A stretch of 44,724 nt of DNA from Prevotella sp. Lineage in GTDB: Bacteria; Bacteroidota; Bacteroidia; Bacteroidales; Bacteroidaceae. This document shows positions 7,494 to 41,163 of the stretch, piece by piece. Each line of letters starts with the position of its first letter. Position 1 is the stretch's first letter. The stretch covers positions 1-44,724 of the forward strand of contig JAGCPC010000139.1 in NCBI GenBank assembly GCA_017642485.1. The letters run 5' to 3'. The notes beneath the pieces are model-generated. The model did not search any database. It was not told where the DNA came from and saw only the letters and a program-made list of their open reading frames with translations. The position numbers were made by a program, and so were the translations under genes.

Positions 7494-8843
7494 ATGAATT
7501 ACAATATTTTTGACAAGAAATCTCCTAAGATGCCAAAGCCTGCAAAAGGCACATCTTTCTGCAAACTACTCCTCTCACAGGCCTCTGTTGACATGCGTGA
7601 AGCGCTTGTTCCGATGGCTTTGCCGGCTCTTGCCGCTCACTTATCGGGTGTGGAGTTTATGTATTCCGACAACAAATATTACGAACTCTGTGGTCAAATG
7701 GGGCATTTGATAGGTCCTTCGGGTATAGGAAAGGCTCAGCTGACTCATCTCATAGAGGCTGTGATGCGCTCTTTTCGTGAGCATGATGAGACTGAGTACA
7801 AGAAACTGGTTGACTGGCAGCGACAGATGAAGACCAAGGGTGCTAACAAGGAGAAGCCCGAGCGACCTGAGGTGAGTTTCTGGTTTCCGCCTGCCGACCT
7901 CACCAATCCTGCGTTCATACAGAATGCTATGGCGCTTGAGAAACAGGGAGGCAAGACGATGTACCTCAACCTGCCTGAGGTGGAGATGGCTGACAAGATG
8001 TGTGGCGGACACCGACAGGTGAGCCAGACAGTTCGCAACATCTATGACCGCCACAGGGCTGGTGCCCTGCGTGCCACGGCTGACGGTGTGACGGGCAACC
8101 CGCTGCTCCGAGTGAACCTCACGTTCAGCTCTACCCCTGAGGCGGCGCGCGCGTTCTATAAGAAGGACTTGATGAATGGTTTCTTCGGGCGCATACCTTT
8201 TGCCTACAAGGCGCGCGGTGAGCGCAAGGGACGCATTCCTCGTCAGGGCAACTATGATGAGGAGTTTCTGGGCAAACTTGAAGAATACATCATGCGGCTG
8301 GAAAACTGCAAGGGCAGGTTTGTGGTAAAGCCGCTCAACAAGATAGCCGACCAACTGGCAGAGGAGATGGCTTCAATAGCCGACCTGGCTGACGATGACG
8401 TGCTCTTTGAACTGAGCCACCGCAGCATATTCTCGGCATGGAAGAAGGCTGCCACCCTGTGGATACTCAACGACCAGACGTGGACTCGCAGCATAGGCGA
8501 TTTTATGGTGTGGTTCTGCTACTACGACCTATGGTCTAAGGTGCAGGTGTTTGGCGACATGTTTAAGGGTGGCGCTGCTGAGACGGAAGAGGTGCGCAAG
8601 GGCGGTCCCAAGAATATGCTTGAGAGCCTTGACGATACCTTCAGCGAACAGCAGTTGGAAGCTCTGCGTGCTTCTCTTGGCAAGGACAGAGAACGTACAA
8701 AACATCAGCTTAACGTTTGGAAGAACCGTGGCTTCATCACTTACTCCGCCCAGACGGGAATGTACTCTAAGACGGAAGGGTACCTCAGTTCAAAAGTTCA
8801 AAAGTTCAAAGGTTCAAAGGTTCAAAAGTTCAATCATGATTGA
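7494..8843 (+). CDS. DUF3987 family ATPase/helicase-like protein
   Basis: 449 aa. The Walker A-like loop GPSGIGKA (residues 74-81) has Ala where Ser/Thr is usual. A GKTMYLNLPEVEMADKM segment (about 160-180) is in the place of a Walker B region. FFGRIPFAYKARGERKGRIPRQ (about 233-254) and a C-terminal winged-helix-like part (LSLGKDRERTKHQLNVWKNRGFITY-like, about 385-425) complete the DUF3987 pattern. In Bacteroidales, DUF3987/VirE-type proteins accompany DUF4248, HU and smalltalk genes, as here. The likely role is DNA replication or mobilisation of a small element, which is inference. The last ~18 residues (SSKVQKFKGSKVQKFNHD) are encoded by the octamer array at 8788-8835 and are not ancestral protein. 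It overlaps the primase start by 8 nt. Confidence 0.82.
   Translation: MNYNIFDKKSPKMPKPAKGTSFCKLLLSQASVDMREALVPMALPALAAHLSGVEFMYSDNKYYELCGQMGHLIGPSGIGKAQLTHLIEAVMRSFREHDETEYKKLVDWQRQMKTKGANKEKPERPEVSFWFPPADLTNPAFIQNAMALEKQGGKTMYLNLPEVEMADKMCGGHRQVSQTVRNIYDRHRAGALRATADGVTGNPLLRVNLTFSSTPEAARAFYKKDLMNGFFGRIPFAYKARGERKGRIPRQGNYDEEFLGKLEEYIMRLENCKGRFVVKPLNKIADQLAEEMASIADLADDDVLFELSHRSIFSAWKKAATLWILNDQTWTRSIGDFMVWFCYYDLWSKVQVFGDMFKGGAAETEEVRKGGPKNMLESLDDTFSEQQLEALRASLGKDRERTKHQLNVWKNRGFITYSAQTGMYSKTEGYLSSKVQKFKGSKVQKFNHD
8788..8835 (+). repeat. Octanucleotide array GTTCAAAR x6
   Basis: Six abutting 8-mers: GTTCAAAA, GTTCAAAA, GTTCAAAG, GTTCAAAG, GTTCAAAA, GTTCAATC. The array ends exactly at the primase ATG (8836) and encodes the C-terminal octapeptide repeat SKVQKFKG/SKVQKFNH of the DUF3987 protein. 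Confidence 0.95.
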
Positions 8844-9873
8844 TAGACTGGATTTACAAAAGCTCCGCGACCTCCCCATTGAGGGGGTCGCAGAGCGACT
8901 CGGGATGGAGGTGGTGCGCCACAAGGCGCTGTGCCCCTTTCATGACGACCACCACGCCTCGCTCTCGTTCTCGGTGAGGAGGAATACCTTCCGCTGCTTC
9001 GTGTGCGGTGAGCACGGCGGCGTGATAGACCTGGTGATGCTCAGGCTGAGGAAAAATTTTAGGGAAGCAGCCGAATGGCTTTCTAACGGGAACGTTAACG
9101 GGAACTATATGTATAACGAAAACCTCAAATCTCCAACCTCCAACCTCAAACCTTTCGACGCTTCGCGCTACGCCCGCTACTTCGAGCACCCGTGGCTGAG
9201 TGACGAGGCGCGGAGGTTTCTCTTTGAGGAGCGCAGGCTCGACGAGCGCGTAGTACGATGGTGCCGCCTCACCTCATGGCGCGACAGGCATGGAGTGCCG
9301 TGGCTGCAGATACCCTACTACGACCAAGAATGGAAACTGGTGGGCGTGCAGAACCGCAACCTCACCCCCAGTCCCTCTCCCAAAGGAGAGGGGGGCACTC
9401 CCCCTGAAGGGGGGAGTTGGAGGGGGGGCGTTCCTCGCTTCCGTTTCCCGCAGGGCTCGGAGTGCGGCATATACAACCTGCCGGTGCTCAACCGCCTCAA
9501 ACCAGGTGACGAGCTGTGGATAACGGAAGGCTGCTCCGACTGCTGGGCCATGCTCTCCTCAGGGCGCAAGGCGATAGCTATACCGTCAGCCACGTTGCTC
9601 AAGCACAAGCAACTGCTTGAGCTTACGATACGCTCCGCTACGATACGCCCTACGGGCTACGATACGTCACTTCGTGACTACGATAACGAAGACTTACAGG
9701 GCGGTTTAACGTTCCCGTTAACGTTCCATATGTTTCCCGACCGCGACGAGCCAGGCGAACGCCTCTTCCTGCAGCTCAAGGAGGTGCTGCCCACGCTGCA
9801 GCACCATCAGTTGCCCCAGGGGTGCAAGGACTTTGGAGAATACTATAAAAGCCTCCCCAAACCCCTCCCGTAG
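8836..9873 (+). CDS. CHC2 zinc-finger/Toprim DNA primase-like protein with repeat-derived insertions
   Basis: 345 aa. A DnaG-type zinc finger has ligands Cys33, His36, Cys54 and Cys57 (CPFH...CFVC). A linker follows, then a Toprim core: LWITEGCSDCWAML with the catalytic Glu231, and MFPDRDEPGERL with Asp302/Asp304. It should make primers, or be a remnant of such an enzyme. Several stretches are repeat-encoded: NGNVNGN (84-90), NLKSPTSNLKP (96-106), about 176-199 (TPSPSPKGEGGTPPEGG...), about 264-283 inside the Toprim fold, and the C-terminal KPLP, where the TAG stop lies in a palindrome. All keep the frame. The start at 8836 abuts the octamer array and overlaps the DUF3987 stop. Whether it is active is uncertain. 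Confidence 0.85.
   Translation: MIDRLDLQKLRDLPIEGVAERLGMEVVRHKALCPFHDDHHASLSFSVRRNTFRCFVCGEHGGVIDLVMLRLRKNFREAAEWLSNGNVNGNYMYNENLKSPTSNLKPFDASRYARYFEHPWLSDEARRFLFEERRLDERVVRWCRLTSWRDRHGVPWLQIPYYDQEWKLVGVQNRNLTPSPSPKGEGGTPPEGGSWRGGVPRFRFPQGSECGIYNLPVLNRLKPGDELWITEGCSDCWAMLSSGRKAIAIPSATLLKHKQLLELTIRSATIRPTGYDTSLRDYDNEDLQGGLTFPLTFHMFPDRDEPGERLFLQLKEVLPTLQHHQLPQGCKDFGEYYKSLPKPLP
9085..9105 (+). repeat. Hexamer array AACGGG/AACGTT
   Basis: AACGGG AACGTT AACGGG AAC, in frame in the primase (NGNVNGN). A second, inverted copy sharing GGAACGTTAACGGGAAC lies at 9706-9727 in the same gene. Confidence 0.9.
9124..9151 (+). repeat. Heptamer array CTCMAAY x4
   Basis: CTCAAAT CTCCAAC CTCCAAC CTCAAAC, read in frame as NLKSPTSNLKP in the primase linker. 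Confidence 0.85.
9361..9437 (+). repeat. Two G/C-rich palindromes inserted in the primase frame
   Basis: Hairpin 1 is CCCTCTCC (9373-9380), loop CAAA, GGAGAGGG (9385-9392). Hairpin 2 is ACTCCCCC (9397-9404), loop TGAA, GGGGGGAGT (9409-9417), followed by TGGAGGGGGG. The left end CTCACCCCCAGTCCCTCTC resembles the insert in mutS2 at 34605-34641. The right half is the reverse complement of CCCCCTCCAACTCCCCC at 41184-41200. About 25 codons are added without a stop. Confidence 0.9.
9624..9685 (+). repeat. TACGATA units alternating with 3-nt-loop hairpins, inside the Toprim coding region
   Basis: TACGATA occurs at 9624, 9639, 9658 and 9679. Between the copies lie GC-TCC-GC (9632-9638), GCCC-TAC-GGGC (9647-9657) and GTCAC-TTC-GTGAC (9666-9678), each a hairpin with a 3-nt loop. 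The element is read in frame between the Toprim ATLLKHKQLLEL segment and the MFPDRDEPG motif. Confidence 0.9.
9706..9727 (+). repeat. Hexamer array TTAACG/TTCCCG, inverted copy of 9085-9105
   Basis: TTAACG TTCCCG TTAACG TTCC. With 9085-9105 it forms a perfect 17-bp inverted pair about 600 bp apart. Confidence 0.88.
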
Positions 9874-9891
9874 AGGGGCTCGGAGGGTTTG
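9857..9891 (+). repeat. Palindrome containing the primase stop codon
   Basis: Outer arms CAAACCCCTCC (9858-9868) and GGAGGGTTTG (9882-9891) enclose a CCCCTC/GAGGGG stem. The TAG at 9871-9873 falls in the loop, so the repeat supplies the last residues and the stop. Confidence 0.85.
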
Positions 9892-9900
9892 AAAGTTTCA

Positions 9901-9932
9901 ATAGTTTAATAGTTTAATAGTTTAATAGTTTA
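9901..9932 (+). repeat. Perfect octamer array ATAGTTTA x4
   Basis: Four identical 8-mers in a row between the primase stop and the DUF4248 gene. Confidence 0.97.
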
Positions 9933-9939
9933 ACAACAT

Positions 9940-9982
9940 CCCCCAAACAAAAGTCCCCCTGCAGGGGGGATTTAGGGGGCTT
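9940..9982 (+). repeat. G/C-rich nested palindrome upstream of DUF4248
   Basis: Inner stem TCCCCC-TGCA-GGGGGGA (9954-9971) is nested in CCCCCAAA/TTTAGGGGG. Its reverse complement begins AAGCCCCCTAAATCCCCCC, the same end seen at 41249-41280 (AAGCCCCTCTAAATCTCCCC). Confidence 0.9.
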
Positions 9983-9991
9983 AGTATAATT

Positions 9992-10318: not shown

Positions 10319-10373
10319 GAAGCAATGCCTCAGCGCGCGGAAGCAGCGCCTCCATAGGCGGAAGCTATGCCTC
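10319..10373 (+). repeat. 21-bp tandem hairpin repeat in the HU leader
   Basis: GAAGCAATGCCTC (10319), GAAGCAGCGCCTC (10340) and GAAGCTATGCCTC (10361) occur at an exact 21-bp period. Each is a near-palindrome GAAGC-nnn-GCCTC with a 3-nt loop. A degenerate fourth copy lies just upstream. Adjacent CGCCT-CCAT-AGGCG forms another hairpin. Confidence 0.85.
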
Positions 10374-10380: not shown

Positions 10381-10415
10381 TTCAAAATTTTCAATGTTCA
10401 ATTTTCAATTTTAAA
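10381..10415 (+). repeat. Heptamer array TTTTCAA x5
   Basis: TTCAAAA TTTTCAA TGTTCAA TTTTCAA TTTTAAA, ending 4 nt before the ATG of the HU-like gene. Confidence 0.85.
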
Positions 10416-10419: not shown

Positions 10420-10875
10420 ATGGCAATTATTATCGATGTGCGCCAAGACAAGCGCAAGAACTCTAACAAGTTGTGGTACGGCCACGTATGGCACCCCACC
10501 ATCCTCGACACCCGAGCTCTGGCTCACCGCATCCAGGCTAACGTATCAGTGAAGGAATCAGACGTGTATGCCGTGCTCATAGAGCTGGCAGAGGTGATGA
10601 CCTACGAGTTGGCCAACTCCAACAAGATCCTGCTCGACCGCTTCGGATACTTCTACGCCTCACTGCGCTCCAGCGGTTCGCTGGCACAGGATGAGTGGAA
10701 CGTCACGGAGAACGTGAAGGACTGCAAGGTACGCTTCACGCAGTCGTACACCCGTTCGCAGGAGACTGCCAGCGACGGCAAGATGTCGGGACTGCAGAGC
10801 CGCGCCCTCTCCGGTGGCTTCCAGTACGTGATCAAGAATCAGGTAAGGAAAAGTCCTGAGGACGATGGAGAGTAA
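10420..10875 (+). CDS. HU/IHF-like DNA-binding protein (HU-HIG type)
   Basis: 151 aa. After MAIIIDVRQDKRKNSNKLWYGHVWHP the helical dimerisation part reads LAHRIQANVSVKESDVYAVLIELAEVMTYELANSNKILLDRFGYFYASL. This is the divergent Bacteroidetes HU-like fold with an N-terminal extension. The C-terminus (SQETASDGKMSGLQSRALSGG...) is polar and loose. It probably bends or coats DNA within the DUF3987/primase module. I use the ATG at 10420; the longer frame upstream crosses the leader repeats. The stop (10873-10875) overlaps the next heptamer array. Confidence 0.85.
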   Translation: MAIIIDVRQDKRKNSNKLWYGHVWHPTILDTRALAHRIQANVSVKESDVYAVLIELAEVMTYELANSNKILLDRFGYFYASLRSSGSLAQDEWNVTENVKDCKVRFTQSYTRSQETASDGKMSGLQSRALSGGFQYVIKNQVRKSPEDDGE

Positions 10876-10908
10876 TTCACAGTTCACAGTGCACAGTTCA
10901 CAGTTATT
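10874..10908 (+). repeat. Heptamer array AGTTCAC x5
   Basis: AATTCAC AGTTCAC AGTGCAC AGTTCAC AGTTATT fill the gap between the HU stop and the next translation start. Confidence 0.93.
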
Positions 10909-10925: not shown

Positions 10926-11027
10926 ATGAGCGAACAAGCTAAGAAGAACTGGAGCGTTATCATCAACGCTATCCTGACTGCAATCTGCACTATCCTGACA
11001 ACCACCAGTTGTGTGAGTCACTTGTAG
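10926..11027 (+). CDS. Smalltalk family micro-protein
   Basis: 33 aa, MSEQAKKNWSVIINAILTAI followed by CTILTTTSCVSHL. A Lys-containing N-terminus leads into one short hydrophobic helix that ends in a TSC motif, the pattern of the Bacteroidales 'smalltalk' family. These micro-proteins sit next to HU-like and DUF4248 genes, usually followed by an N-acetylmuramoyl-L-alanine amidase. No amidase is present here. A membrane location is likely; function is unknown. The TAG stop forms the first arm of the hairpin TAGCGC-AAA-GCGCTA. Confidence 0.82.
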   Translation: MSEQAKKNWSVIINAILTAICTILTTTSCVSHL

Positions 11028-11080
11028 CGCAAAGCGCTAAGTTCAAGCGCTACGCTGGTTCAAGTCGCGCTGAAGCGCTA
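11025..11080 (+). repeat. AGCGCT hairpins alternating with TTCA units after smalltalk
   Basis: TAGCGC-AAA-GCGCTA (11025-11039), AGTTCA, AGCG-CTA-CGCT (11046-11056), GGTTCA, then GCGCT-GA-AGCGC (11067-11078). Small hairpins with 2-3-nt loops are separated by short direct units, the same architecture as 9624-9685. Confidence 0.85.
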
Positions 11081-11108
11081 GTTTAAGAAAGTTCAAAGTA
11101 TTAAAAAA

Positions 11109-11165: not shown

Positions 11166-13742
11166 TTAACTCCTTTTGCCTCTTTCCAGCAGTTTGAACA
11201 CGGCGGGCTGTACGACGTAGGAGAGTACTACGGCGGAGACCATGCCGACGAGGGTGGCGAAGCCTACTGACTGGATGGCGGGGTGCTTGGCAAAGAGCAT
11301 GGAGGCTACGGTGACGATGAGGATGAAGGCGGAGAAGAATATCGCCGTCTTGTGGTAAGCAAGGACCTTACCGTTATTCGCCTGCGAACTAACTGTGAAC
11401 TGTGAATTGTGAATTGTGAATTGTGAATTGTTCTTCCTGTCAGCTATTAGTCCGCTCATGATGAAGATGGAGTAATCGACGCCTATGCCGAAGATGAAGG
11501 TGGAGATGATGATGTTGATGAGGTTGAAACGCACCTGGAAGATAGCCATCGCTCCGAGCACTATGAGCCATGAGAGCAGGATGGGGGCGAAGCCGAGCAG
11601 GGTGTGCTTGAGGTTGAAGTGGAAGGAGAGCAGGAGCACTACGAAGACGAACGCCATGCTGACCCACTGGAGGATGTTGAAGTCGCTGTTGAGGTCGTTC
11701 AAGCCGTCGGTGGTGTAGTAGTAGGTGTCGAGCACCATCATGTTGGGTTCATTGGCTATGGCGTCGCAGATGCGGTTGTAGTCGGTGTCCTTGCCGCGTA
11801 TGGAGTCGTTGGCGCAGCGCACGGAGGTGAAGCAGAGGTAGTCGCCTGCGGCGGTCTGCTCCATGAGGGTGGACTGGTAGCCTGCTGGTATGATGTCGGC
11901 GGAGTAGAGCGGGGTGGGCTCGTAGTCAGCCGTGGCGAGGTCGAAGAAGGGCTGGAAGTCCGACGGGGTGAGTCCTGCCGCAGGGGCTGTCTGGGCTATG
12001 AGGCTTCGGACCTTGGCGAGGCGCTCGGGTGTCCAGTATGCCTGCCATGCGTCGATGCGCTCCTGCTGCACCTTGAGGGGCACGAAGACGGCATCGGTGT
12101 GGGTGTAGTCCTTCACCAGACCCAGTTTCTGCAGCGAGTCGAGCTTGTGGGAGAGGAGGGCGAAGTTTTGCAGCGCCTCCTCCATGGTCTTGCCCTGTGA
12201 AGCGAAGTACTTTGACTTGTCAGCGGTGTAGGTCTTGTTGCGCAGGAGTGCCTCGGAGTACTCGGTGTTGTCAGAGAGGTAGCCGAGGTTGCCCATGTCG
12301 GCATCGAAGTCGGTGCCCTTGGCTACGTAAAATGCCACGCAGAGGGCTGTCACGGCGCCGATGACGGCGAGCAGCGGTTTCTTGGTCTCAAAGGGGTAGT
12401 TGTTGATGCGGTCGATGAGGGCGAATGCCTTGTGGTTGACCTTGTTCTGCTCGAGCTGCATGAGGTGGGGCAGATAGATGAGGGCAAAGATGGTGGTGCC
12501 CACGATGGCGAAAGCTGCGAAGAGTCCGAAGTCCTGCAGGAGGTCGGTCTTGATGAAGATGAGTCCCATGAAGGAACCGATGGTGGTGAGGCAGCCCAGA
12601 AGGACGGGTTTGGTCTCGTCACGCAGCACCACCTCGGGGTCTGCCACATATTTATAATGTGTGAGGATATGGAGCACGTAGCTCATCGCCACACCGAGCA
12701 CCACGGAGCCTATGCCGAGGGCGAGCAGCGAGAACTGTCCCTTGATGAAGTACATCATGGAGAGTCCGAAGAGGGTGCCGAAGGCTACGGGGAGTATGAG
12801 CAGGGGGATGGTGTTCCAGTTGCGCATACAGATGAAGAGCACCACGAGGACTATGACGAGTGACCACGCTATGGTGGAGGTGAGGTCGCCCTTGATGGTG
12901 GATGAGTTGTAGTAGCCGCTGGCTGGTGTGCCGTGGTAGCTTATCTTGACGCCTGGGTGGGTGAGCTGAAACTGCTCTATCAGCGTATTGAGGTTGATGA
13001 AGAGCTGCGAGCCCTGCCCCGTGTTGGTGGCTGAGAAGGCTGGCGAGATGAAGGCTACGCAGACGGTGGAATCGCGCACGAAGAAGTGGTCATTGATGGT
13101 CTTGTAGCTGCCGCCCGTAGCCTGCATGAGGGGTGCCATCTGCTGCATGAGCACGGTGCGCATGCCGATGGGGTCGGACTGTATGAGTTCGGGGAATGTC
13201 TCGCCAAGCTCGGTATGGAGGTCTGCTGCCGTCTGCTGCATCTGTGCCTTCATGTGGGGCACGGTGAGCAGGGTGTCGAAGGCGCTGTAGGCTGAGGTGT
13301 CGATGTATGACGGCACGTTTTCCTGCATGAAACTGATGCCCTCGAGCATGAGGTCCTCGGGAATCTGGTAGAACACGTCGCCGATGATGCGGTGGGCTGT
13401 GTCGCCATCCATGGCAAGGAGCGAATCGACGAAGGCGTCGCACACGGTGGTGAGACTGTCTATCTGGGCGTCGTTCATGTCCTGGGGCTTCATGGGACTG
13501 CCGTCCTTAGCCCTTGCCTCGAAGAGCAGGAAGGTCTTGTCCTTTATGCGCAGGTCGGCAAACGCCATCTTAGTGGTGCCGTCAGGGTTCTTTGACGATG
13601 GCATAAGTTTGTTGAGGTCTTCCTCAAGGTGTATCTTGCTTGAGAAGAAACCCGTGACTAAGAACAGTATAACCATCGTGAGCCACATGAGGGCGCGATG
13701 GTTACGGAAAAAACGGTAGATGGCGATAAATAAGTTTGTCAT
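11166..13742 (-). CDS. MMPL/RND-family lipid exporter
   Basis: 858 aa from the ATG at 13742 (MTNLFIAIYRFFRNHRALMW); a longer GTG-initiated frame would only translate the flanking repeat. Layout: TM1 (about 15-35), a large periplasmic loop (35-290) and five TMs (about 290-440, TIAWSLVIVLVVLFIC, LLALGIGSVVLGVAMSY). A second periplasmic loop (about 470-690) and five more TMs (LQWVSMAFVFVVLLLSF, STFIFGIGVDYSIFIM) follow. This is the two-fold RND topology. Family members move lipids or polyketides across the inner membrane using the proton gradient. As last gene of a ketosynthase/ACP/dehydratase operon it probably exports or delivers that product. A heptamer array (11391-11432) inserts NSQFTIHNSQFTVSSQ in a cytoplasmic loop. 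Confidence 0.9.
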   Translation of the reverse strand: MTNLFIAIYRFFRNHRALMWLTMVILFLVTGFFSSKIHLEEDLNKLMPSSKNPDGTTKMAFADLRIKDKTFLLFEARAKDGSPMKPQDMNDAQIDSLTTVCDAFVDSLLAMDGDTAHRIIGDVFYQIPEDLMLEGISFMQENVPSYIDTSAYSAFDTLLTVPHMKAQMQQTAADLHTELGETFPELIQSDPIGMRTVLMQQMAPLMQATGGSYKTINDHFFVRDSTVCVAFISPAFSATNTGQGSQLFINLNTLIEQFQLTHPGVKISYHGTPASGYYNSSTIKGDLTSTIAWSLVIVLVVLFICMRNWNTIPLLILPVAFGTLFGLSMMYFIKGQFSLLALGIGSVVLGVAMSYVLHILTHYKYVADPEVVLRDETKPVLLGCLTTIGSFMGLIFIKTDLLQDFGLFAAFAIVGTTIFALIYLPHLMQLEQNKVNHKAFALIDRINNYPFETKKPLLAVIGAVTALCVAFYVAKGTDFDADMGNLGYLSDNTEYSEALLRNKTYTADKSKYFASQGKTMEEALQNFALLSHKLDSLQKLGLVKDYTHTDAVFVPLKVQQERIDAWQAYWTPERLAKVRSLIAQTAPAAGLTPSDFQPFFDLATADYEPTPLYSADIIPAGYQSTLMEQTAAGDYLCFTSVRCANDSIRGKDTDYNRICDAIANEPNMMVLDTYYYTTDGLNDLNSDFNILQWVSMAFVFVVLLLSFHFNLKHTLLGFAPILLSWLIVLGAMAIFQVRFNLINIIISTFIFGIGVDYSIFIMSGLIADRKNNSQFTIHNSQFTVSSQANNGKVLAYHKTAIFFSAFILIVTVASMLFAKHPAIQSVGFATLVGMVSAVVLSYVVQPAVFKLLERGKRS
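11391..11432 (-). repeat. Heptamer array inside the MMPL coding sequence
   Basis: AACTGTG AACTGTG AATTGTG AATTGTG AATTGTG AATTGTT on the plus strand, six heptamers. Read in frame on the minus strand they give the heptapeptide repeat NSQFTIH/NSQFTVS between MSGLIADRKN and NNGKVLAYHKTA. The left flank TGCGAACTAACTGTG recurs at 13789-13803. Confidence 0.95.
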
Positions 13743-13805
13743 AACTCTTAACTGTGAACTGTGCACTGTGACACGAAGTGATGAGCTTTGCGAACTAACT
13801 GTGCA
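13743..13805. repeat. Heptamers plus dispersed hairpin element between MMPL and dehydratase genes
   Basis: AACTCTT AACTGTG AACTGTG CACTGTG (13743-13770) lead into CAC-GAA-GTG, ATGA, GC-TTT-GC, GAACTAAC. 13767-13795 is nearly identical, inverted, to 33606-33635. The 63-bp spacer contains nothing else. Confidence 0.9.
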
Positions 13806-14171
13806 CTAACAAAGTGTTCCTTTGAATTCCATGTATGACTGCTTGTCGTCGGCTATGGTGGCTACGACGGTGAAGGCATCATCCTTGGGCGTAGCGCTGA
13901 CGTTGATGCTGACCTCCGGACATACGGTAGGTGTGGCGATGGCGGTAAGGCGGCACTGCTTTATGGTATTGATGCGCAGCGCCTTGCCCACGAGGCGTGA
14001 GGCGCACTCCTTGATGGTCTCGATGTTGCACACGCCAGGGCATACGGGGTCGCCAGGGAAGTGACCCTCATAGACGTTGCAGTCGGGGAGTATGGCGACA
14101 TGGTAGGTGGCAGAGCCGTCAGACAGCCTGTCTTCGCCAAGTATCTTGTAGAATTTGTTTTCTAAGAACAT
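13806..14171 (-). CDS. FabZ-like hotdog-fold 3-hydroxyacyl-ACP dehydratase
   Basis: 121 aa, one hotdog domain. YEGHFPGDPVCPGV carries the catalytic His37, and CNIETIKECAS carries Glu51 on the following helix, as in FabZ/FabA. It dehydrates a 3-hydroxyacyl chain held on ACP. It lies between the MMPL exporter and a second dehydratase gene. Two dehydratases, a ketosynthase and an ACP in one operon recall aryl-polyene-type clusters. No ketoreductase is present, so one must come from elsewhere. The 33-nt gap upstream is a hexamer array. Confidence 0.82.
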   Translation of the reverse strand: MFLENKFYKILGEDRLSDGSATYHVAILPDCNVYEGHFPGDPVCPGVCNIETIKECASRLVGKALRINTIKQCRLTAIATPTVCPEVSINVSATPKDDAFTVVATIADDKQSYMEFKGTLC

Positions 14172-14173
14172 GT

Positions 14174-14203
14174 TTAACCTTAACGTTAACCTTAACCTTA
14201 ACT
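14174..14203. repeat. Hexamer array TTAACC x5
   Basis: TTAACC TTAACG TTAACC TTAACC TTAACT fill practically the whole spacer between the two dehydratase genes. Confidence 0.95.
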
Positions 14204-14204
14204 T

Positions 14205-14615
14205 TTATTCCTTTACAAATATTTTCATGGTGGTATCGGCGACAACCTCATCGCCGCACTTTGTCTCACCGCGAATGATGGTGATACCCTCCACCTCGGG
14301 TCCCATGGTAATGGTGGTGACGAGTACGTCGCCTATCTGGGGACGGTGGTATAGGTGGAAGTTCTTCACCTCGCCGATGTAGCCCACGGGGGGCTCTGTG
14401 GCACCTGCCTGCACGGCGCGGTAGCCAGCGAAGGCGCTTGCCGACTGGGCGATGTGCTCTATCAGTCCTGGCTCAGCCATGAGCGTATCCTCGTCGATAA
14501 AGAAATTGTCGGGGCGCACGGTGAGTTGGCACTGTGCCTCGTCTCCGTTAACACACAACAGCTCGTCGATCATGACGATCGGCGAGCGTTGTGGTATAAG
14601 TTGTGTGATGTCCAT
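14205..14615 (-). CDS. ApeP/FabZ-like hotdog 3-hydroxyacyl-ACP dehydratase
   Basis: 136 aa from the ATG at 14615 (MDITQLIPQRSPIVMIDELL). The PQRxPxxMIDxL opening, EPGLIEHIAQSASAFAGYRA helix and C-terminal GITIIRGETKCGDEVVADTTMKIFV are typical of the ApeP-like thioester dehydratase branch. A longer frame upstream would run through the ACP gene and is rejected. It starts 13 nt after the ACP stop. With the neighbouring FabZ-like protein it gives the operon two distinct dehydratases. Confidence 0.8.
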   Translation of the reverse strand: MDITQLIPQRSPIVMIDELLCVNGDEAQCQLTVRPDNFFIDEDTLMAEPGLIEHIAQSASAFAGYRAVQAGATEPPVGYIGEVKNFHLYHRPQIGDVLVTTITMGPEVEGITIIRGETKCGDEVVADTTMKIFVKE

Positions 14616-14628
14616 CTTGTTCACTGCC

Positions 14629-14868
14629 TTATGCGTGAGACTCGATGTAGTCATACAGGTCGTTGAAGGTCTGGATCTTTGGCAGGTCTTCAGCAGGAAT
14701 CTTAATCTTGTAAGTGTACTGGATGAGTGCCACGAGGTCAACGAGTGAGAGGCTGTCCAGAGCGAGAGTGTTCTTGACGTTAGCCTCTGGAGTGATGGTG
14801 CTTTCTTCTACCTCGAACTCTTCAGCGAGTACTGAATTTACCTTTGAAATGATTTCTTCGCGTGTCAT
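14629..14868 (-). CDS. Acyl carrier protein
   Basis: 79 aa, acidic four-helix ACP. LDSLSLVDLV holds Ser39, the 4'-phosphopantetheine attachment site in the DSL motif. It would carry the chain handled by the ketosynthase and two dehydratases on either side. It is a dedicated ACP: the N-terminus MTREEIISKVNSVLAEEFEV differs from housekeeping AcpP. Confidence 0.9.
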   Translation of the reverse strand: MTREEIISKVNSVLAEEFEVEESTITPEANVKNTLALDSLSLVDLVALIQYTYKIKIPAEDLPKIQTFNDLYDYIESHA

Positions 14869-14910
14869 GATAACTTTTTTGTTTTTTAGTGTTATTATAA
14901 ATTCTGAATA

Positions 14911-14977
14911 TTCTGAGTGATTCTGAGTGATCAGATATTTTCTTAACTCTTAACTCTTAACTCTTAATTCTTAACTC
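14911..14977. repeat. Decamer pair plus heptamer array TTAACTC x5
   Basis: TTCTGAGTGA twice (14911-14930), then TTAACTC TTAACTC TTAACTC TTAATTC TTAACTC (14943-14977), abutting the ketosynthase stop codon at 14978. The 109-bp ACP-ketosynthase gap holds no gene. Confidence 0.93.
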
Positions 14978-16195
14978 TTACAGATTCTTTATAATCAGCG
15001 TTGAGTTAGTTCCGCCAAAGCCGAAGGAGTTGGAGAGGAACATGTCGAAGTGGGTCTGAATGGTTTCAGGCACTACATTAATGCAAGCGGTCTCTTCGTC
15101 TGGTTCTGAGAAGTTTATGTTGCCTGCTATGAAGTCGTTTTTCATCATGAGCATAGAGTAGATGGTCTCTGCTGCTCCTGCTGCCCACATCTCGTGACCA
15201 GTCTGTGACTTGGTGGAGGTGACAGGCACGCGGTAGTCGCCAAACACCTGTGCTATAGCCATAGCCTCGCGTCCGTCGCCGGCATGTGTAGAGGTGGCGT
15301 GGGCGTTGATGTAGCCTATCTGACGAGGGTCTATGCCACCGTTCTTGAGTGCCAGTTCGAGTGAGCGAGCCGGACCAGCCACGTTTGGCGTAGAGATATG
15401 GTCGCCGTTGCCTGAGAAACCCCAGCCTACAACCTCGGCAAGGATTGGTGCGCCACGCTTCACGGCGTGCTCGTAGCTCTCGAGGATAACGGTTGCAGCA
15501 CCACCGCCAGGAACGAGTCCGTCACGACCCTTGTCGAATGGACGTGATGCCTTGGTAGGCTCATCCTCGCGTGTAGAGAAAGCCTGTATGCCGTCGAAAG
15601 ATGCCACGCAGTACATGTTGGCCTCCTGTGCGCCACCTGCTATGATGCAGTCTGACAGGCCGTTCTTGATGAGCAGGTAGGCGTTGCCTATAGCCAGCGA
15701 ACTGGAAGCACATGCCGCACTTGACGTGAGGTTGATGCCACGCAGTTTGAAGAGGCAGGCGAGGTTCATGGTCACGGTGGAGTTCATGGACTGGAAGATG
15801 GCACCTGAGCCGCAAGCTGCCGTATCGCCAAACTCGCGGAACTTGTCGAGGGCGCGCATGGTAGCCTCAGCCACGGAGTCGTTGCCGTAGATGATGCCCA
15901 CCTCGTTGTTGTCGAGGAAGTCCTGGTCTATCTTTGCAGCCTCGAGAGCATCCTTGGTTGCCATGTAGGCATACTGTGCCTCTTCGGGCATGAACTGACG
16001 CATGTTGCGTGGTACGAAAGGCTTGAGGTCTGGCTTTGGCACGTCGGCACAAAGGGCAGAACGGAAGCCTGCATCCTTGCGCTCCTGTGAGAAGATTATA
16101 CCACTCTTGCCTTCAAAAAGGGACTGACGAACATCGTCGAGGGTCTGTCCGAGACAGGACCATATACCCATACCTGTGATTACTACTCTGTTCAT
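14978..16195 (-). CDS. FabF-like beta-ketoacyl-ACP synthase
   Basis: 405 aa, close to FabF (~412). Thiolase fold with the complete Cys-His-His triad: Cys162 in SSAACASSSLA, His299 in INAHATSTHAGD, His334 in KSQTGHEMWAAGA, plus Lys329. It condenses malonyl-ACP with an acyl chain. The operon position next to a dedicated ACP and two dehydratases argues for specialised (polyene or unusual fatty acyl) synthesis rather than housekeeping. It starts 18 nt after the GNAT stop. Confidence 0.9.
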   Translation of the reverse strand: MNRVVITGMGIWSCLGQTLDDVRQSLFEGKSGIIFSQERKDAGFRSALCADVPKPDLKPFVPRNMRQFMPEEAQYAYMATKDALEAAKIDQDFLDNNEVGIIYGNDSVAEATMRALDKFREFGDTAACGSGAIFQSMNSTVTMNLACLFKLRGINLTSSAACASSSLAIGNAYLLIKNGLSDCIIAGGAQEANMYCVASFDGIQAFSTREDEPTKASRPFDKGRDGLVPGGGAATVILESYEHAVKRGAPILAEVVGWGFSGNGDHISTPNVAGPARSLELALKNGGIDPRQIGYINAHATSTHAGDGREAMAIAQVFGDYRVPVTSTKSQTGHEMWAAGAAETIYSMLMMKNDFIAGNINFSEPDEETACINVVPETIQTHFDMFLSNSFGFGGTNSTLIIKNL

Positions 16196-16213
16196 TATCT
16201 CGTTGTTATATTT

Positions 16214-17452: not shown

Positions 17453-17609
17453 GGAGTGATAGTGGAGTGATAAGGGAGTTATAGGGTTTAGGTATGGTAC
17501 AAAAAAAGAATTGATTGTCTCACGACAATCAATCTTCATTAACCTTAATAATCTAATACCATGAAAAACACATTGCAAAGATACTCCTTTTGGAAGTGAT
17601 ATGCAAGTT
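17453..17609 (+). other. Orphan leader cassette with 12-codon mini-ORF
   Basis: In the 284-bp gap between genes: GGAGTGATA, GGAGTGATA, GGAGTTATA at an 11-bp period (17453-17483), then a hairpin TTGATTGTC-TCAC-GACAATCAA (17511-17532). The AT-rich start context AACCTTAATAATCTAATACC and the mini-ORF MKNTLQRYSFWK* (17571-17609) follow. It resembles the start of an outer-membrane or surface-protein gene of this phylum, cut off after 12 codons by a TGA; no continuing homology is visible. It could be a decayed gene start, a leader peptide or an sRNA. Confidence 0.5.
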
Positions 17610-20840: not shown

Positions 20841-20868
20841 AAATTAAGAGTTAAGAATTAAGAGTTAA
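20841..20868. repeat. Heptamer array GAGTTAA x4
   Basis: AAATTAA GAGTTAA GAATTAA GAGTTAA, spanning the ruvX stop (20858-20860). It encodes the last residues of RuvX (TLNS) and is the inverse of the TTAACTC array at 14943-14977. Confidence 0.9.
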
Positions 20869-33595: not shown

Positions 33596-33605
33596 TTCAT
33601 AATTA

Positions 33606-33644
33606 GTTTGCAAAGCTCATCACATTCGTGTCACAATTCACAAT
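33606..33644 (+). repeat. Dispersed hairpin element plus TCACAAT heptamers overlapping the queH start
   Basis: 33606-33635 is nearly identical, inverted, to 13767-13795 (core GCAAAGCTCATCAC, then TTCGTGTCACA), followed by TCACAAT twice (33631-33644). The queH GTG (33628) lies inside, so the repeat supplies the first six codons. Confidence 0.93.
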
Positions 33645-36736: not shown

Positions 36737-36742
36737 TTTCTT

Positions 36743-36777
36743 AATTAGTAATTAGAAATTAGAAATTAGGAATTATT
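36743..36777. repeat. Heptamer array AATTAGA x5
   Basis: AATTAGT AATTAGA AATTAGA AATTAGG AATTATT fill the gap between the ettA stop and the mutS2 start. Confidence 0.95.
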
Positions 36778-36779: not shown

Positions 36780-38492
36780 TTAATCCTCCATCAGTTTTCT
36801 GTAGCGCGGACGCTTTATCTCGTCAGTACCTAAACGGCGTGCCTTGTTAATCTCGTAGTCTGAGTAAGAGCCTTCAAAGAAGAACACCTTTCCGTCACCC
36901 TCGTAGGCAAGGATGTGGGTACATATACGGTCGAGGAACCAGCGGTCGTGCGAGATAACTACAGCACATCCTGCAAAGTTCTCCAGGCCCTCCTCAAGGG
37001 CTCGCAGAGTGTTTACGTCGATATCGTTGGTGGGCTCGTCAAGAAGCAGCACATTGCCTTCCTGTTTCAGAGCGAGCGCAAGTTGCAGCCTGTTACGCTC
37101 ACCACCTGACAATACTCCGCAGAGTTTTCCCTGATCATTGCCTGAAAAGTTGAAGCGTGAGAGGTACGCACGAGCGTTGACATCTCTGCCACCCATGCGG
37201 AATGTCTCCACACCTTGTGAAATGACGTCATAGACCGACTTCTTGGGGTCTATATCCACATGCTGCTGGTCAACGTATGCCAGTTTCACTGTTTCACCCA
37301 CCTCAAAGGTTCCGGCATCAGGTTTCTCCAGTCCCATGATAAGTCGGAAGAGTGTAGTCTTACCAGCACCATTAGGACCTATGACACCCACGATGCCGTT
37401 TGGTGGCAGCATGAAGTCGAGGTTCTTGATGAGTACCTTCTCCGTTCCGTCAGCCTGTGGGAACGATTTGCATACTCCCTTAGCCTCAATAACCTTGTTA
37501 CCCAGACGCGGACCGTTGGGAATGAATATCTCCAGACGCTCTTCGCGCTCCTTTGTCTCTTCGTTGAGCATAGCATCGTAAGAGTTCAGACGTGCCTTAC
37601 CCTTTGCCTGGCGTGCCTTTGGAGCCATACGAATCCATTCCAACTCACGCTCGAGAGCCTTCTGGCGCTTTGATGCCGTCTTCTCTTCCTGAGCCATTCG
37701 CTTGGTCTTCTGGTCGAGCCATGAAGAGTAGTTGCCCTTCCAAGGAATGCCCTCACCACGATCGAGTTCAAGAATCCATTCCGATACATCGTCGAGGAAG
37801 TAACGGTCGTGGGTTACGGCAATAACTGTTCCTTCATATTGCTGTAGGTGTTGCTCCAACCAGTCTATTGACTCAGCATCGAGGTGGTTGGTGGGCTCAT
37901 CGAGAAGCAGCACATCGGGTTTCTGAAGCAGGAGCTTACACAAAGCCACACGCCTGCGCTCACCACCTGAGAGGTTCTTTACAGAGCTATCACCTTGAGG
38001 ACAGTTGAGAGCTGCCATTGCCCTCTCGAGTTTAGAGTCCATGTTCCACGCATCGGTGGAGTCGATGATGTCCTGCACCTCAGCCTGTCGCTGCATCAGT
38101 TTGTCCATCTTGTCGGGGTCGCCGTAGTACTCCTCCAGTCCGAATTTCTGGTTTATCTCGTCATACTCCCTGAGAGCATCATATACATGCTGTACACCCT
38201 CTTGCACGTTTTCCTTCACGGTCTTTGTCTCGTCGAGTGGAGGATCCTGTGGCAGGTAGCCTACCGTGTATCCTGGGCTCCATACCACCTCACCCTGAAA
38301 CTTATCGTCCAGTCCGGCGATAATTTTCATCAGGGTTGACTTACCCGCACCGTTTAGACCCACGATGCCTATCTTCGCTCCGTAGAAGAACGAGAGGTAT
38401 ATGTTCTTTAATACTTGCTTTTGGTTTTGTGGGATGATTTTTGAAACTCCCACCATTGAGAAGATTATCTTCTTGTCGTCAACTGTTGCCAC
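36780..38492 (-). CDS. ettA: ABC-F translation factor EttA
   Basis: 570 aa. Two ABC cassettes: Walker A GLNGAGKST (45-53) and GPNGAGKTT (second half); signatures LSGGERRRVALC and LSGGERNRLQLA; LLLDEPTNHLDAESIDWLE. A charged inter-domain linker includes WIRMAPKARQAKGKARLNSYDAM. This motif set and length are EttA (energy-dependent translational throttle), a cytoplasmic ribosome E-site factor. The start is GTG at 38492; no ATG is near. Heptamer arrays bound it on both sides. Confidence 0.93.
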   Translation of the reverse strand: MATVDDKKIIFSMVGVSKIIPQNQKQVLKNIYLSFFYGAKIGIVGLNGAGKSTLMKIIAGLDDKFQGEVVWSPGYTVGYLPQDPPLDETKTVKENVQEGVQHVYDALREYDEINQKFGLEEYYGDPDKMDKLMQRQAEVQDIIDSTDAWNMDSKLERAMAALNCPQGDSSVKNLSGGERRRVALCKLLLQKPDVLLLDEPTNHLDAESIDWLEQHLQQYEGTVIAVTHDRYFLDDVSEWILELDRGEGIPWKGNYSSWLDQKTKRMAQEEKTASKRQKALERELEWIRMAPKARQAKGKARLNSYDAMLNEETKEREERLEIFIPNGPRLGNKVIEAKGVCKSFPQADGTEKVLIKNLDFMLPPNGIVGVIGPNGAGKTTLFRLIMGLEKPDAGTFEVGETVKLAYVDQQHVDIDPKKSVYDVISQGVETFRMGGRDVNARAYLSRFNFSGNDQGKLCGVLSGGERNRLQLALALKQEGNVLLLDEPTNDIDVNTLRALEEGLENFAGCAVVISHDRWFLDRICTHILAYEGDGKVFFFEGSYSDYEINKARRLGTDEIKRPRYRKLMED

Positions 38493-38500
38493 TTACTACT

Positions 38501-38549
38501 AATTGAAAATTGAGAATTGAAAATTGAAAATTGAGAATTGTGAATTATT
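38501..38549. repeat. Heptamer array AATTGAA x7
   Basis: AATTGAA AATTGAG AATTGAA AATTGAA AATTGAG AATTGTG AATTATT, running from the ettA start to the stop codon of the GH28-GH105 gene (38545-38547 inside the last unit). Confidence 0.96.
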
Positions 38550-41163
38550 CACGCTCCATTTCGAGTGAAGCCCAGATGAATGGTCCTACGCCCTTAGGGT
38601 CGTTATCCCTGATGGGTTCTGACATGTAGTATTCGAATGTTCCGTCACGCCTTGGGTTGTTGTCTGGTCCCAGACCAGAAACGGCGCAGCAGTCAGTGAG
38701 TGATATTGTCATGTCGGGATTCACCTTTATCATCTTTTCTATGATGGCGTTGTAAGCCTTCACACCAGCCTCTTTGAACTCTGGCTCAGGCAGGTAGCCC
38801 AGTCGTGAACCCTTGAGCAGTACGTAGGTGAACATAGCCGATGCTGTTGACTCGAGGTAGTTCTTGTCAGACTTTACGTCCATCACGTCAAACCACAGTC
38901 CGCTGTCCTTGTCCTGATATTTCACTGCTGCCGCCATAGCCTGGTGCAGAATGTTGATTACCTCTGCACGACGGGCATAGTCTTGTGGCAGGGCATCGAG
39001 TATCTCGGTCATCGCCATCACGAACCATCCCATAGCTCTTGCCCAAGTGTGCTTTGACAGTCCTGTCTCCTTGTCAGCCCAGAACATGGAGTGTGTCTCG
39101 TCCCAGGCATGCTTCCACAGTCCTGTCTTCTCGTCGTATGTGCGACGGAAGGTCTTCGTTATCTGGTCAACGGCATCGTCGTAGTATTTCTTTGCCTGCT
39201 TCTTTCCTTTCAGTTCCTGAGCCGAGAGGGTATAGAATGGCAAACCCATATATATGCCGTCGAGCCACACTTGGTTGGCATATATCTTCTTATGCCACCA
39301 TACGCCCTCATTCGTCCTTGGGTGGTTCTCTAATTGCTTGAAGAAGGTAGGCAGAGCGTTTGTCACCTTTGTCTCGGGGAAGAGGCGGTTGTACTGCAGC
39401 AGCAGGCGTGCAGGACGTATGTTGTCGAGGTTAAACTCATCATAGTTGTAGCCCACCACCGAGCCGTCCTCCTTCACCATCTGTCCAGGGTACCTACCTA
39501 CATAGTTGGCAAAGATGGTGTCGCCGTAGGTCTTGTAGCAGTCCAGTATAGCCTCCAGCTCCAGTCCCATACCATAGTTCCACTTGCCTTGCGGACGTTT
39601 CTCAGGGTTGGTGAAGTCAAGGTATATGGGGTTGGGCACTCTCTGCATCTCGCTCCATGCCATCCACTCCGAGTAACGGCAGTAAGGAGCCTTTGAGAGC
39701 AGTTCCTTGCCGTTTACCTTCACGTTTTCTATGTATATGTCCTTGGAGCGTCCTGAATAAAGTATTGGCGCATCGGTAACGCCGTTGAACGAGCAGTTCT
39801 TTACGTAGATATCGTAAATCTGCGCATCCTTCTCAAGTCCGTCTATGCGTATGCCGTACTTTGACTTTTGGCTTGTCACGTTCTCCATATACACATTGCG
39901 CACAGTAGGTATATATATACGTGGTGATGGTTCGCTTGGTTCGTAGTTGAGGTTTATGCGCATGACAGACCTCTTGCATTCTCCTACCTCTATGTTGCGC
40001 ATGTAGATATTCTCCGTCACGCCGCCTCGGCATGAGTTTGTCTTGATGCGCAGCACACGGTCGAGGTTGGGTGAGTCCATCTTACAGTCCTCAGCAAAGA
40101 CGTTCCTTACGCCTGCCGATGTCTCACTGCCCAGTACCACACCACCGTGTCCATCCTCCATCACGCAACGGCGCACTATGATATTCTGCGATGGTATAGG
40201 TGTGCGATGTCCGTCGGCATTGCGTCCTGACTTGATGGCTATGCAGTCGTCGCCGGTGTGGAATATGCAGTCCTCTATCAGCACGTCTTCACATGACTCT
40301 GGGTCACACCCGTCGCCGTTAGGTCCTTCGTTGGTTACTGTGACTTTGCGTATCGTTATATTCTTAGAGAACAGAGGGTGCATCACCCAGAAGGGTGAGT
40401 GTACCATCTGCACACCCTCAATGAGTATGTTCTCGCATGATACGAGGTTCAGCAATTGCGGACGCAGTCCGTGTCCCATACCGAATACACGTTGCTCCGT
40501 AGGTACTCCGTCGTCCATCATTTTCTGCAGGGCCTGACGGTTGGAGAGCATATTGCCCTCAGCATTCTTCTCGTATTTCGCTATTCCCTTGTATGGAATG
40601 CGGTTCTGGCACTCCTTTGTGATGCCCTCCTTAAACCCGAATCTGGGGTTGCCGTTCCATTGCCACCAGGTGTCGTTGCTTCCGTTGCCATCTATGGTTC
40701 CTTCGCCTGTGATGGCTATATTCTGCGCCTTGTAGGCGTAGATGCATGGTGAGTAGTTTATGCAGTCCAGTCCCTCCCAGCGTGTCACCACATTGGGGTA
40801 TAACTCGGGTTGGAAGGCGAAGACTATCCTTGCATCTTTCTGTATCTCGAGGTTCACGCCTGACAGCAGACGTATGGCTCCCGTCTGGTATGTGCCGGCA
40901 GGGATAACGACCTTACCGCCACCAGCCTTCGAACATTTCTCTATTGCCTTGTTGATAGCCTTCTGGTTCTTGGCAGCATCGGCCTTTGGTGAAGCGCCGT
41001 ATTTCTTTACGTTATAGGTCTTATCCTTGAAGGTTGGTGCTACGATGCGACTCTCTATCTGCTTGTAGAGTGCGGTGTCCCAACCTTCGGCTTTTACCGA
41101 ATTGACAATTGAAAACTGACAATTGAAAATTATGATTACGAGCAAAGAAAGGATTTTCTTCAT
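38545..41163 (-). CDS. GH28-GH105 fusion pectinase, exported
   Basis: 872 aa, two enzymes in one chain. Signal peptide MKKILSLLVIIIF, continued by NCQFSIVNSVKA. GH28 (about 45-480): NGDGCDPESCED, HTGDDCIAIKSGRN, DGHGGVVLGSETSAG with the GHG intact, and LRIKTN. GH105/GH88-type alpha/alpha barrel (about 510-872): VWLDGIYMGLPFY with the probable catalytic Asp, HAWDETHSMFWAD, WARAMGWFVMAMTEIL. The first domain would cleave galacturonan and the second would remove 4,5-unsaturated uronic acids from product ends. No SusC/D genes are near. Part of the signal peptide is encoded by the heptamer array at 41100-41134. Confidence 0.9.
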   Translation of the reverse strand: MKKILSLLVIIIFNCQFSIVNSVKAEGWDTALYKQIESRIVAPTFKDKTYNVKKYGASPKADAAKNQKAINKAIEKCSKAGGGKVVIPAGTYQTGAIRLLSGVNLEIQKDARIVFAFQPELYPNVVTRWEGLDCINYSPCIYAYKAQNIAITGEGTIDGNGSNDTWWQWNGNPRFGFKEGITKECQNRIPYKGIAKYEKNAEGNMLSNRQALQKMMDDGVPTEQRVFGMGHGLRPQLLNLVSCENILIEGVQMVHSPFWVMHPLFSKNITIRKVTVTNEGPNGDGCDPESCEDVLIEDCIFHTGDDCIAIKSGRNADGHRTPIPSQNIIVRRCVMEDGHGGVVLGSETSAGVRNVFAEDCKMDSPNLDRVLRIKTNSCRGGVTENIYMRNIEVGECKRSVMRINLNYEPSEPSPRIYIPTVRNVYMENVTSQKSKYGIRIDGLEKDAQIYDIYVKNCSFNGVTDAPILYSGRSKDIYIENVKVNGKELLSKAPYCRYSEWMAWSEMQRVPNPIYLDFTNPEKRPQGKWNYGMGLELEAILDCYKTYGDTIFANYVGRYPGQMVKEDGSVVGYNYDEFNLDNIRPARLLLQYNRLFPETKVTNALPTFFKQLENHPRTNEGVWWHKKIYANQVWLDGIYMGLPFYTLSAQELKGKKQAKKYYDDAVDQITKTFRRTYDEKTGLWKHAWDETHSMFWADKETGLSKHTWARAMGWFVMAMTEILDALPQDYARRAEVINILHQAMAAAVKYQDKDSGLWFDVMDVKSDKNYLESTASAMFTYVLLKGSRLGYLPEPEFKEAGVKAYNAIIEKMIKVNPDMTISLTDCCAVSGLGPDNNPRRDGTFEYYMSEPIRDNDPKGVGPFIWASLEMERE
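41100..41134 (-). repeat. Heptamer array inside the signal-peptide coding sequence
   Basis: AATTGAC AATTGAA AACTGAC AATTGAA AATTATG, read on the minus strand as IIFNCQFSIVNS in the GH28-GH105 leader. Confidence 0.93.

Follow-up and report, generated by a model that had tools for sequence, protein, structure and literature searches.

Short tandem arrays with a predominant seven-nucleotide unit and a preferred direction in a Prevotella genome

What gives rise to the short tandem arrays that recur between and within the genes of the Prevotella sp. contig JAGCPC010000139.1 (assembly GCA_017642485.1; 44,724 nucleotides, referred to as the window)? An initial annotation had described them as unrelated arrays with a strict 6-, 7- or 8-nucleotide (nt) unit at gene junctions and proposed a copying process or junction selection as their cause. 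The arrays are real and strong and of a known kind, and they are richer than the published cases that we found. Our preferred reading, to which we assign a probability of about 60%, is that they are heptanucleotide repeats of the type called long simple sequence repeats (LSSR) or short tandemly repeated repetitive sequences (STRR), which expand where they stand through slippage and the duplication of blocks, are re-seeded from a pool of units in the genome and persist where translation tolerates them. The window is one contig (C134) of a 2.09 Mb assembly of 193 contigs (G000, 79% complete), of which 18% was sampled (392,805 bases including the window, 371,022 of them unmasked), together with 24% of the genome of a sister species (G008, 616,372 bases). 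The nearest named relative found is Prevotellaceae bacterium UBA4332 (contig DGTQ01000005.1, 278,780 bases), and many of 80 named relatives carry rumen or ruminant labels. Arrays were called with our own detector, whose score is the number of matches at lag p less two per mismatch, and in the window also with Tandem Repeats Finder (TRF). Genes were called with a home-made caller whose start positions are uncertain.

Dinucleotide-preserving shuffles, which cover the window only, separate the arrays clearly from chance. At a detector score of 14 the window contains 11 arrays (eight of period 7, two of period 8 and one of period 6) and 50 shuffles contain none; lowering the score to 12 raises the count to 14, and 20 shuffles then average 0.05. 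Tandem units of 5–11 nt, by which heptanucleotide LSSR are recognized, are thus present beyond chance. The arrays and associated elements are listed below, ORF denoting an open reading frame.

8787–8833, plus strand: 8-nt array of AGTTCAAA, 5.9 copies, in the last 60 nt of ORF 7494–8843, ending 3 nt short of where the primase-like ORF 8836–9873 is called to begin.
9120–9153, plus strand: 7-nt array AAACCTC/CAACCTC, 4.9 copies, in frame in the CHC2 primase-like ORF (peptide SPTSNLKP).
9624–9685, minus strand: hairpin-linker array within the CHC2 primase-like ORF; TATCGTA words alternate with GTCAC-GAA-GTGAC, GCCC-GTA-GGGC and GC-GGA-GC (minus-strand reading).
9900–9933, plus strand: 8-nt array of AATAGTTT, about four copies, downstream of the primase-like ORF.
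10386–10412, plus strand: 7-nt array CAATTTT, 3.9 copies, 7 nt upstream of the called start (10420) of an HU-like ORF, a start that is uncertain because the reading frame is open from 10219.
10876–10905, plus strand: 7-nt array TTCACAG, 4.3 copies, starting at the base after the stop codon TAA of 10420–10875.
11025–11090, plus strand: hairpins (GCGC-AAA-GCGC and others) alternating with AAGTTCAA-like words.
11391–11431, minus strand: 7-nt array, sense TTCACAA/TTCACAG, in frame in the MMPL-family exporter ORF 11166–13742 (peptide NNSQFTIHNSQF).
13742–13770, minus strand: 7-nt array, sense CACAGTGCACAGTTCACAGTTAAGAGTTA, directly adjoining the MMPL start codon as called.
13779–13800, minus strand: dispersed module AGTTAGTTCGCAAAGCTCATCA, found at 13 places in the genome, here between the 13742–13770 array and a shorter TTCACAG-like stretch.
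14174–14202, minus strand: 6-nt array, sense GGTTAA, between two co-directional ORFs.
14941–14980, minus strand: 7-nt array, sense TAAGAGT; the ketoacyl-synthase ORF 14978–16195 terminates in its first unit, which supplies the stop codon.
20844–20872, minus strand: 7-nt array, plus-strand reading TTAAGAG, overlapping the 3' end of ORF 20858–21301.
20877–20895, minus strand: short 7-nt array, 2.7 copies, plus-strand reading AACTGTG, within the 3' part of ORF 20858–21301.
33601–33622, plus strand: second window copy of the dispersed module with two mismatches and TTCATAA/TTCACAA-like words on both sides.
36742–36775, minus strand: 7-nt array, sense TAATTTC, 4 nt past the stop codon of ORF 36780–38492 (two ABC domains and ABC_tran_Xtn).
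38501–38546, minus strand: 7-nt array, sense TTCAATT, filling the junction between 38545–41163 and 36780–38492, with a 21-nt higher-order period at 100%.
41100–41131, minus strand: weak 7-nt array AATTGAA/AACTGAC (plus-strand reading) near the 5' end of the called ORF 38545–41163.

Thirteen of the 14 sites named in the initial annotation carry a 6-, 7- or 8-nt array according to TRF and our detector. The remaining site, 9085, is a 12-nt word occurring twice with a score of 10, at which shuffles yield 0.3 per window, and the array at 41100 is present but weak (detector score 10, TRF score 43). The idea that the arrays share no sequence could not be upheld: 10874, 11391, 13743 and the short 20877 array form one AACTGTG/AATTGTG family, 10381, 38501 and 41100 an AATTGAA family, and 14943 and 20841 an AACTCTT family. 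Placement at gene junctions applies to part of the arrays; however, 9124 and 11391 lie deep within ORFs, 41100 lies inside a called ORF near its 5' end, and 8788 occupies the end of one ORF just before the next called start. The earlier observation is largely right and is partly confirmed.

The preference for seven nt extends through both sampled genomes. Period 7 accounts for 93 of the 141 arrays of period 5–12 in G000 and for 134 of the 198 in G008, and when periods 4–24 are considered 7 nt remains the commonest unit (91 of 160 arrays in G000, 124 of 245 in G008), as in LSSR. Sampled intergenic DNA shows a lag-7 autocorrelation excess of 0.022 in G000 and 0.021 in G008, in line with the genome-wide excess of periods 6–8 that the initial annotation had proposed to look for. 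The lag-21 excess is equally high (0.022 and 0.020) but not diagnostic, because it is also high in the array-poor genomes G020 and G305 as residual codon periodicity. Small samples of further genomes gave lag-7 values of 0.011 (G020), -0.001 (G186) and -0.009 (G305), and G020, which belongs to the same genus, had no array of period 4–17 in 35 kb. Array density in the 80 named relatives (at most 22.6 kb each) ranged from 0 to 3.6 per 10 kb, with none in 36 of them, and small samples of eight order-wide genomes, picked for high counts of a TTCA pattern or its control, contained period-7 arrays in five cases (one to four each).

Arrays at different places are drawn from recurring unit families. 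The 93 period-7 arrays of G000 use 27 units, and 73 of them belong to units occurring at least three times; the G008 sample has 41 units. Pairs of arrays with a common unit number 320 in G000 versus 6.9 expected when the units are drawn from intergenic words instead (at most 18 in any of 500 draws), and 589 versus 13.7 in G008. Three AAYTGTG units in a row, equivalent to TTCACAG triplets, occur 107 times in G000 and 75 times in G008, and in only five of 98 other same-genus genomes, one to five times each. Four consecutive TTCA words at period 7 are found in 95 of 198 genomes of the order, G000 included, with fillings that differ across the order (e.g. TTCACGG, TTCATTT, TTCAATG). A reversed control pattern is also found in many of these genomes, sometimes more often, and this count therefore indicates heptad arrays and no special role of TTCA. 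Alternating AACTGTG and AATTGTG units in G008 (contig C14) point to block duplication, as does the 21-nt period at 38501.

Even in non-coding DNA, array direction with respect to transcription is constrained. Across the same-direction non-coding junctions of G000 and G008, with each junction contributing a single array, the TTCACAG type is sense in 30 cases and antisense in one (p 3e-8) and the TTCAATT type sense in 18 and antisense in three (p 0.0015), with the GTTTACA, GTTAAGA, GTATAAA, CAAACCT and TTCAACT types showing the same lean without significance. Inside coding sequence TTCACAG-type arrays are sense in 20 of 21 cases, and 6-nt AACCTT arrays lean to opposite directions in junctions (three of three) and genes (six of seven). 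For 143 period-7 arrays in same-direction junctions, sense units contain fewer start codons than antisense units in 73 cases, more in 16 and equally many in 54, and part of the direction bias may reflect avoidance of spurious starts.

The 141 G000 arrays are distributed over same-direction (61), convergent (13) and divergent (3) junctions, contig ends (12) and called genes (52 arrays lying mostly within these); such genes make up 79% of bases. Counted by junction, arrays occupy 51 of the 193 same-direction, 9 of the 24 convergent and 3 of the 18 divergent ones. Same-direction arrays of G000 lie within 10 nt of the upstream stop codon in 56% of cases, versus 26% for random placement in the same junctions, and within 10 nt of the start codon in 28% versus 26%; a first G008 sample gave 27% versus 15% for stop and start alike. 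The 117 period-7 arrays of same-direction junctions include 51 in contact with the stop codon and 40 that reach within 20 nt of the start, with 20 arrays in both groups. Within genes, a 7-nt array encodes one and the same heptapeptide in all three frames (FTVHSSQ for TTCACAG), which leaves a strand either entirely open or entirely closed. The G000 sample contains 38 ORFs of at least 360 nt with an array. According to Pfam, an SNF2 helicase, a sulfatase and a prolidase-like peptidase have arrays inside a domain; in Mfd, RsmF and RsgA (a 6-nt array in RsgA) the arrays fall between domains. Among 80 coding period-7 arrays, the sense strand has fewer starts and fewer stops in 54 and more of both in 11. 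The mfd site is not a clean insertion, because the variable loop is also present in array-free species; 13 of 30 rows in that alignment were only fragments and were not counted.

Comparison with relatives indicates turnover. The arrays at 11391, 13742 and 14941 are absent in UBA4332 and UBA2738, and the one at 14174 is absent in UBA4332 with a 7-nt difference. At 13742, the stop-to-start gap of UBA4332 consists only of TAGTTCATAGTTATG, about two family units. The MMPL exporter, with orthologs of 88% identity in G008 and 86% in UBA4332 and protein matches in 36 of 60 relatives, many of them distant, has an in-frame excess of 57 nt over UBA4332 at 11391, the array being part of this excess. In five relatives without the array, the stop codon at 14941 is found at the same place (UBA4332, Tb.RUG.131 and UBA3627) or two codons later (UBA2738 and RGIG6920). 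Both flanks of 17 of the 141 G000 arrays were present in the G008 sample: eight of these places carry some array and two retain the unit under the looser test used here (none under a stricter count). In the other direction, 12 of 198 G008 arrays could be placed, of which seven places carry an array and three retain the unit, one being a period-12 array in a coding stretch 97% identical. Unrelated places, taken as a control, gave 11.5%.

We hypothesize that replication slippage or unequal exchange duplicates short units in place, frequently two or three units at a time. Seven may be favored because mismatch repair is not known to mend loops of this size. Units and whole array pieces would also be copied to new sites from a genome-wide pool, giving each genome its dialect, and survival would be filtered by translation, so that arrays remain in stop-to-start spacers, or in protein loops if in frame and free of stops. 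Growth, copying and translational filtering are each suggested by sequence comparison, and no array needs a function. Polymerase geometry has been proposed by others as the reason for seven. Loss of mismatch repair was considered and rejected, mutS1 being over the cut-off in both G000 and G008. SbcD had no match in either genome; its loss is not specific, because only 3 of 23 other same-genus genomes were over the cut-off. Both causes initially proposed, a copying process and junction selection, gain support, and the earlier interpretation is to this extent partly supported. No polymerase, reverse transcriptase or repair enzyme was identified, no search aimed at reverse transcriptases having been made.

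Several observations weigh against growth by slippage and re-seeding from a pool. No copying enzyme was identified, and slippage alone leaves the common units and the near-absolute direction of non-coding TTCACAG arrays unexplained. Period-7 arrays were absent from small samples of G188, G215 and G305, and with three of eight order-wide samples lacking them it is only for G000 and G008 that the period-7 bias is shown. The GTATAAA type leans to the stop-bearing strand (8 to 3, p 0.23). More than 20 nt from a stop codon, the named families still number 32 sense and 9 antisense arrays, with 25 others, and a stop-codon seed is therefore no explanation there. Arrays near stops are in register with them in 30 of 67 cases versus 10.1 expected; however, most of this signal stems from stop-overlapping arrays (21 of 31), in which detection forces the register, and without these it is weak (9 of 36 versus 5.0 expected, p 0.053). 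Stop-codon seeding was thus rejected as the full cause of direction.

The best evidence for copying of array pieces between loci, as far as sequence can suggest it, is the 22-nt module AGTTAGTTCGCAAAGCTCATCA, found at 13 places in G000 and none in G008. At least one TTCACAG-like word is present on each side at 12 of the 13 places, the exception being locus L240. In a further type of array, short hairpins of differing sequence, many of them closed by a GNA loop, are separated by the octad GTATCGTA (window 9624–9685, minus strand; L003 4217–4277; L006 5342–5400; L170 6216–6300). The corresponding pattern, TATCGTAG followed by 4–16 bases and CGTATCGTA, occurs 76 times in G000 and 8 times in G008, and in the other 148 same-genus genomes once each in G151 and G161, neither palindromic. 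Inserts were counted only in TATCGTA clusters that include one or more palindromes, 22 in all; three pairs lacking any (L005, L133, L134) were dropped. The 35 distinct inserts in these 22 arrays include 32 palindromes with a loop of at most 4, versus 0.6 expected after letter shuffling. TATCGTAG is sense in 10 of 12 same-direction junctions and antisense in six of seven genes. Other hairpin linkers are also present in G000. A dispersed hairpin mosaic (CCAACTTGTTGG, CTTGCCAGAGCAAG and others) is found in G008 at L137 2456–2590, L140 8686–8765 and L223 (orthologous to L164 14588), with one 16-mer at 18 sites in 616 kb, one copy lying within a gene.

The arrays could be footprints of very small mobile elements moved by a specific enzyme, similar to repetitive extragenic palindromes (REPs) with their REP-associated tyrosine transposases (RAYTs) or to cyanobacterial small dispersed repeats, as the dispersed module inside arrays, the GTAG at the hairpin foot in the 76 pattern places of G000 and the in-frame arrays in conserved genes might indicate. 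We consider this quite unlikely, given that the Y1 transposase PF01797 had no match in G000 (79% complete) or G008, while 26 of 40 searched genomes were over the cut-off, and that no target duplication or common end was evident at four aligned sites, no systematic search having been made. A RAYT transposase as the mover was rejected on the same PF01797 result. Still more doubtful is a dedicated copying system that would write fixed-length words into operon junctions along transcription, with a second class built from a constant octad linker (GTATCGTA, also TACGAAAC-like words) and renewable perfect-palindrome inserts. If they are one element, the hairpin-linker arrays would represent a new layout. 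A polymerase with its own short template, telomerase-like or a reverse transcriptase, would suit the strict unit length with single substitutions and the 6-nt TTAACC-like arrays; a single template would not account for the 27 and 41 distinct 7-nt units of the two samples, which makes this reading very improbable.

Alternatively, the arrays may be functional RNA elements of operon junctions, for instance unstructured stretches aiding ribosome re-start or protein binding, with selection fixing their direction. The 30 to 1 direction of non-coding TTCACAG-type arrays would be expected of such elements, as would the contacts with stop codons (51 of 117), starts (40) or both (20), the start-poor sense strands (73 of 143 versus 16 with more) and the fact that the four TTCACAG-type arrays of convergent junctions that begin no more than 10 nt from a stop all read in the sense of the gene ending there. 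A translational role has indeed been argued for TAACTGA repeats by MacGregor (PMC4679880). We nevertheless hold an RNA function to be unlikely: units mostly change at the same place between sister species (2 of 17 retained), TTCACAG triplets are confined to 5 of 98 other same-genus genomes, identical units also occur within proteins, only 51 of 193 same-direction G000 junctions have an array, and two TTCAATT/TTCAATC-type arrays by stops in convergent G008 junctions (L140) break the direction rule. Chance or an assembly artefact is hardly credible, even though both G000 and G008 appear to be metagenome assemblies, since the 50 window shuffles at score 14 were empty, arrays are also found in assemblies from other groups, frames are preserved in conserved genes and the same-genus genome G020, sampled alike, had no array of period 4–17 in its 35 kb.

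Names for this kind of repeat do exist, contrary to the initial annotation: heptanucleotide excess is known as LSSR or STRR, and a one-family version oriented toward start codons was published in 2015. In heterocystous cyanobacteria, STRR and small dispersed repeats form arrays of heptanucleotides in which dispersed modules are embedded. A search of this genome for one such unit, a CCCCAGT-type word in three copies, gave no match. For LSSR (Mrazek 2007, via PMC4679880 and PMC4692102), period 7 is the commonest unit in most genomes and slippage has been proposed; direction, stop-to-start placement and unit turnover are not mentioned in these summaries. The closest published case is the single-family TAACTGA heptamers of Beggiatoaceae, Cyanobacteria and five Bacteroidetes (MacGregor 2015, PMC4679880), likewise 7-nt tandem units, mostly intergenic near start codons, running in one direction toward the start and in part overlapping the upstream stop, with two to six copies in the type genome. 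A preferred direction relative to the neighboring gene is shared by TTCACAG-type and TTCAATT-type arrays. The opposite direction that TAACTGA takes within ORFs is, however, not shared by TTCACAG-type arrays, which are sense in both places, whereas hairpin-linker arrays do flip. TAACTGA is also one unit whose single-base variants are rarely repeated, compared with 27 and 41 units here, and 10 of about 170 of its sets are interior to ORFs, compared with 52 of 141 arrays mostly in called genes. TAACTGA itself was found in 0 of 276 period-7 arrays and in no doublet in the G000 and G008 samples.

The GGGAATC and GGGGA(C/T)T repeats of Xanthomonas and Nostoc (PMC4692102) are also mostly intergenic heptamers varying in length and sequence between related species, but are G-rich with quadruplex potential. 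In one Xanthomonas 30% lie on the same and 35% on the opposite strand of aligned ORFs, and most lie between the same genes in both Xanthomonas species (PMC4692102). Borg tandem repeats (PMC9879509) are likewise fast-evolving, intergenic and in frame in proteins, a likeness of tempo and placement; Borgs, unlike the present genomes, are archaeal extrachromosomal elements. GTAG-/CGTC-tagged palindromes and REPs (PMC3733652) are likewise short hairpins with GTAG at one end, sometimes in genes, and in the hairpin-linker arrays alone TATCGTAG places GTAG next to the palindrome, before the inserts. REP families, however, each have their own stem or loop, GTAG families often lying near RAYT genes (PMC3733652), whereas here 35 inserts share one linker. 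Relative to the published cases, the many unit families per genome, the genome-specific dialects across Bacteroidales and the octad-plus-hairpin arrays are new. No description of multi-family heptad or hairpin-linker arrays in Prevotella was found in the open-licence literature searched, which is no proof that none exists.

Other repeats and genes were noted along the way. A period-21 repeat GGAAGC...GCCTC with GC-rich inserts lies at 10319–10373 of the window, a period-10 array of ATTCTGAGTG at 14901–14931 adjoins the 14941 array, and CCCCCT/AGGGGG hairpin sequences occur at 9365–9440, 9955–9968 and 41195–41210, one within the primase-like ORF; similar CTCCCCC...GGGGGAG repeats are found in G008. 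Four period-9 arrays of CTATAGTNN, with a palindromic core and two freely varying positions, are present in one 8.9 kb contig (L005 506–556, 1883–1960, 2460–2509 and 4276–4315). Some other 9-nt arrays are ordinary coding repeats (ENT in L166) and were set aside. The genes at 11166–17365, including the MMPL exporter, a FabA-like domain and a ketoacyl synthase, form a run that we take to resemble a cluster of the aryl polyene or flexirubin type. Above the gathering score, 17501–17571 on the minus strand matches Rfam RF04319 (BTncRNA_FopS), a family of paralogous small RNAs of Bacteroidetes. No Rfam model covers an array, the two matches in six sources (87,861 bases) both lying elsewhere.

An excess of heptanucleotide repeats in bacteria has long been noted, and the slippage idea exists, with no tested cause found in the literature. 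Here, close species differ at the same junctions, several unit families coexist and arrays lie in frame in housekeeping genes, which makes both the origin of the arrays and the role of their direction testable with strains and reporters.

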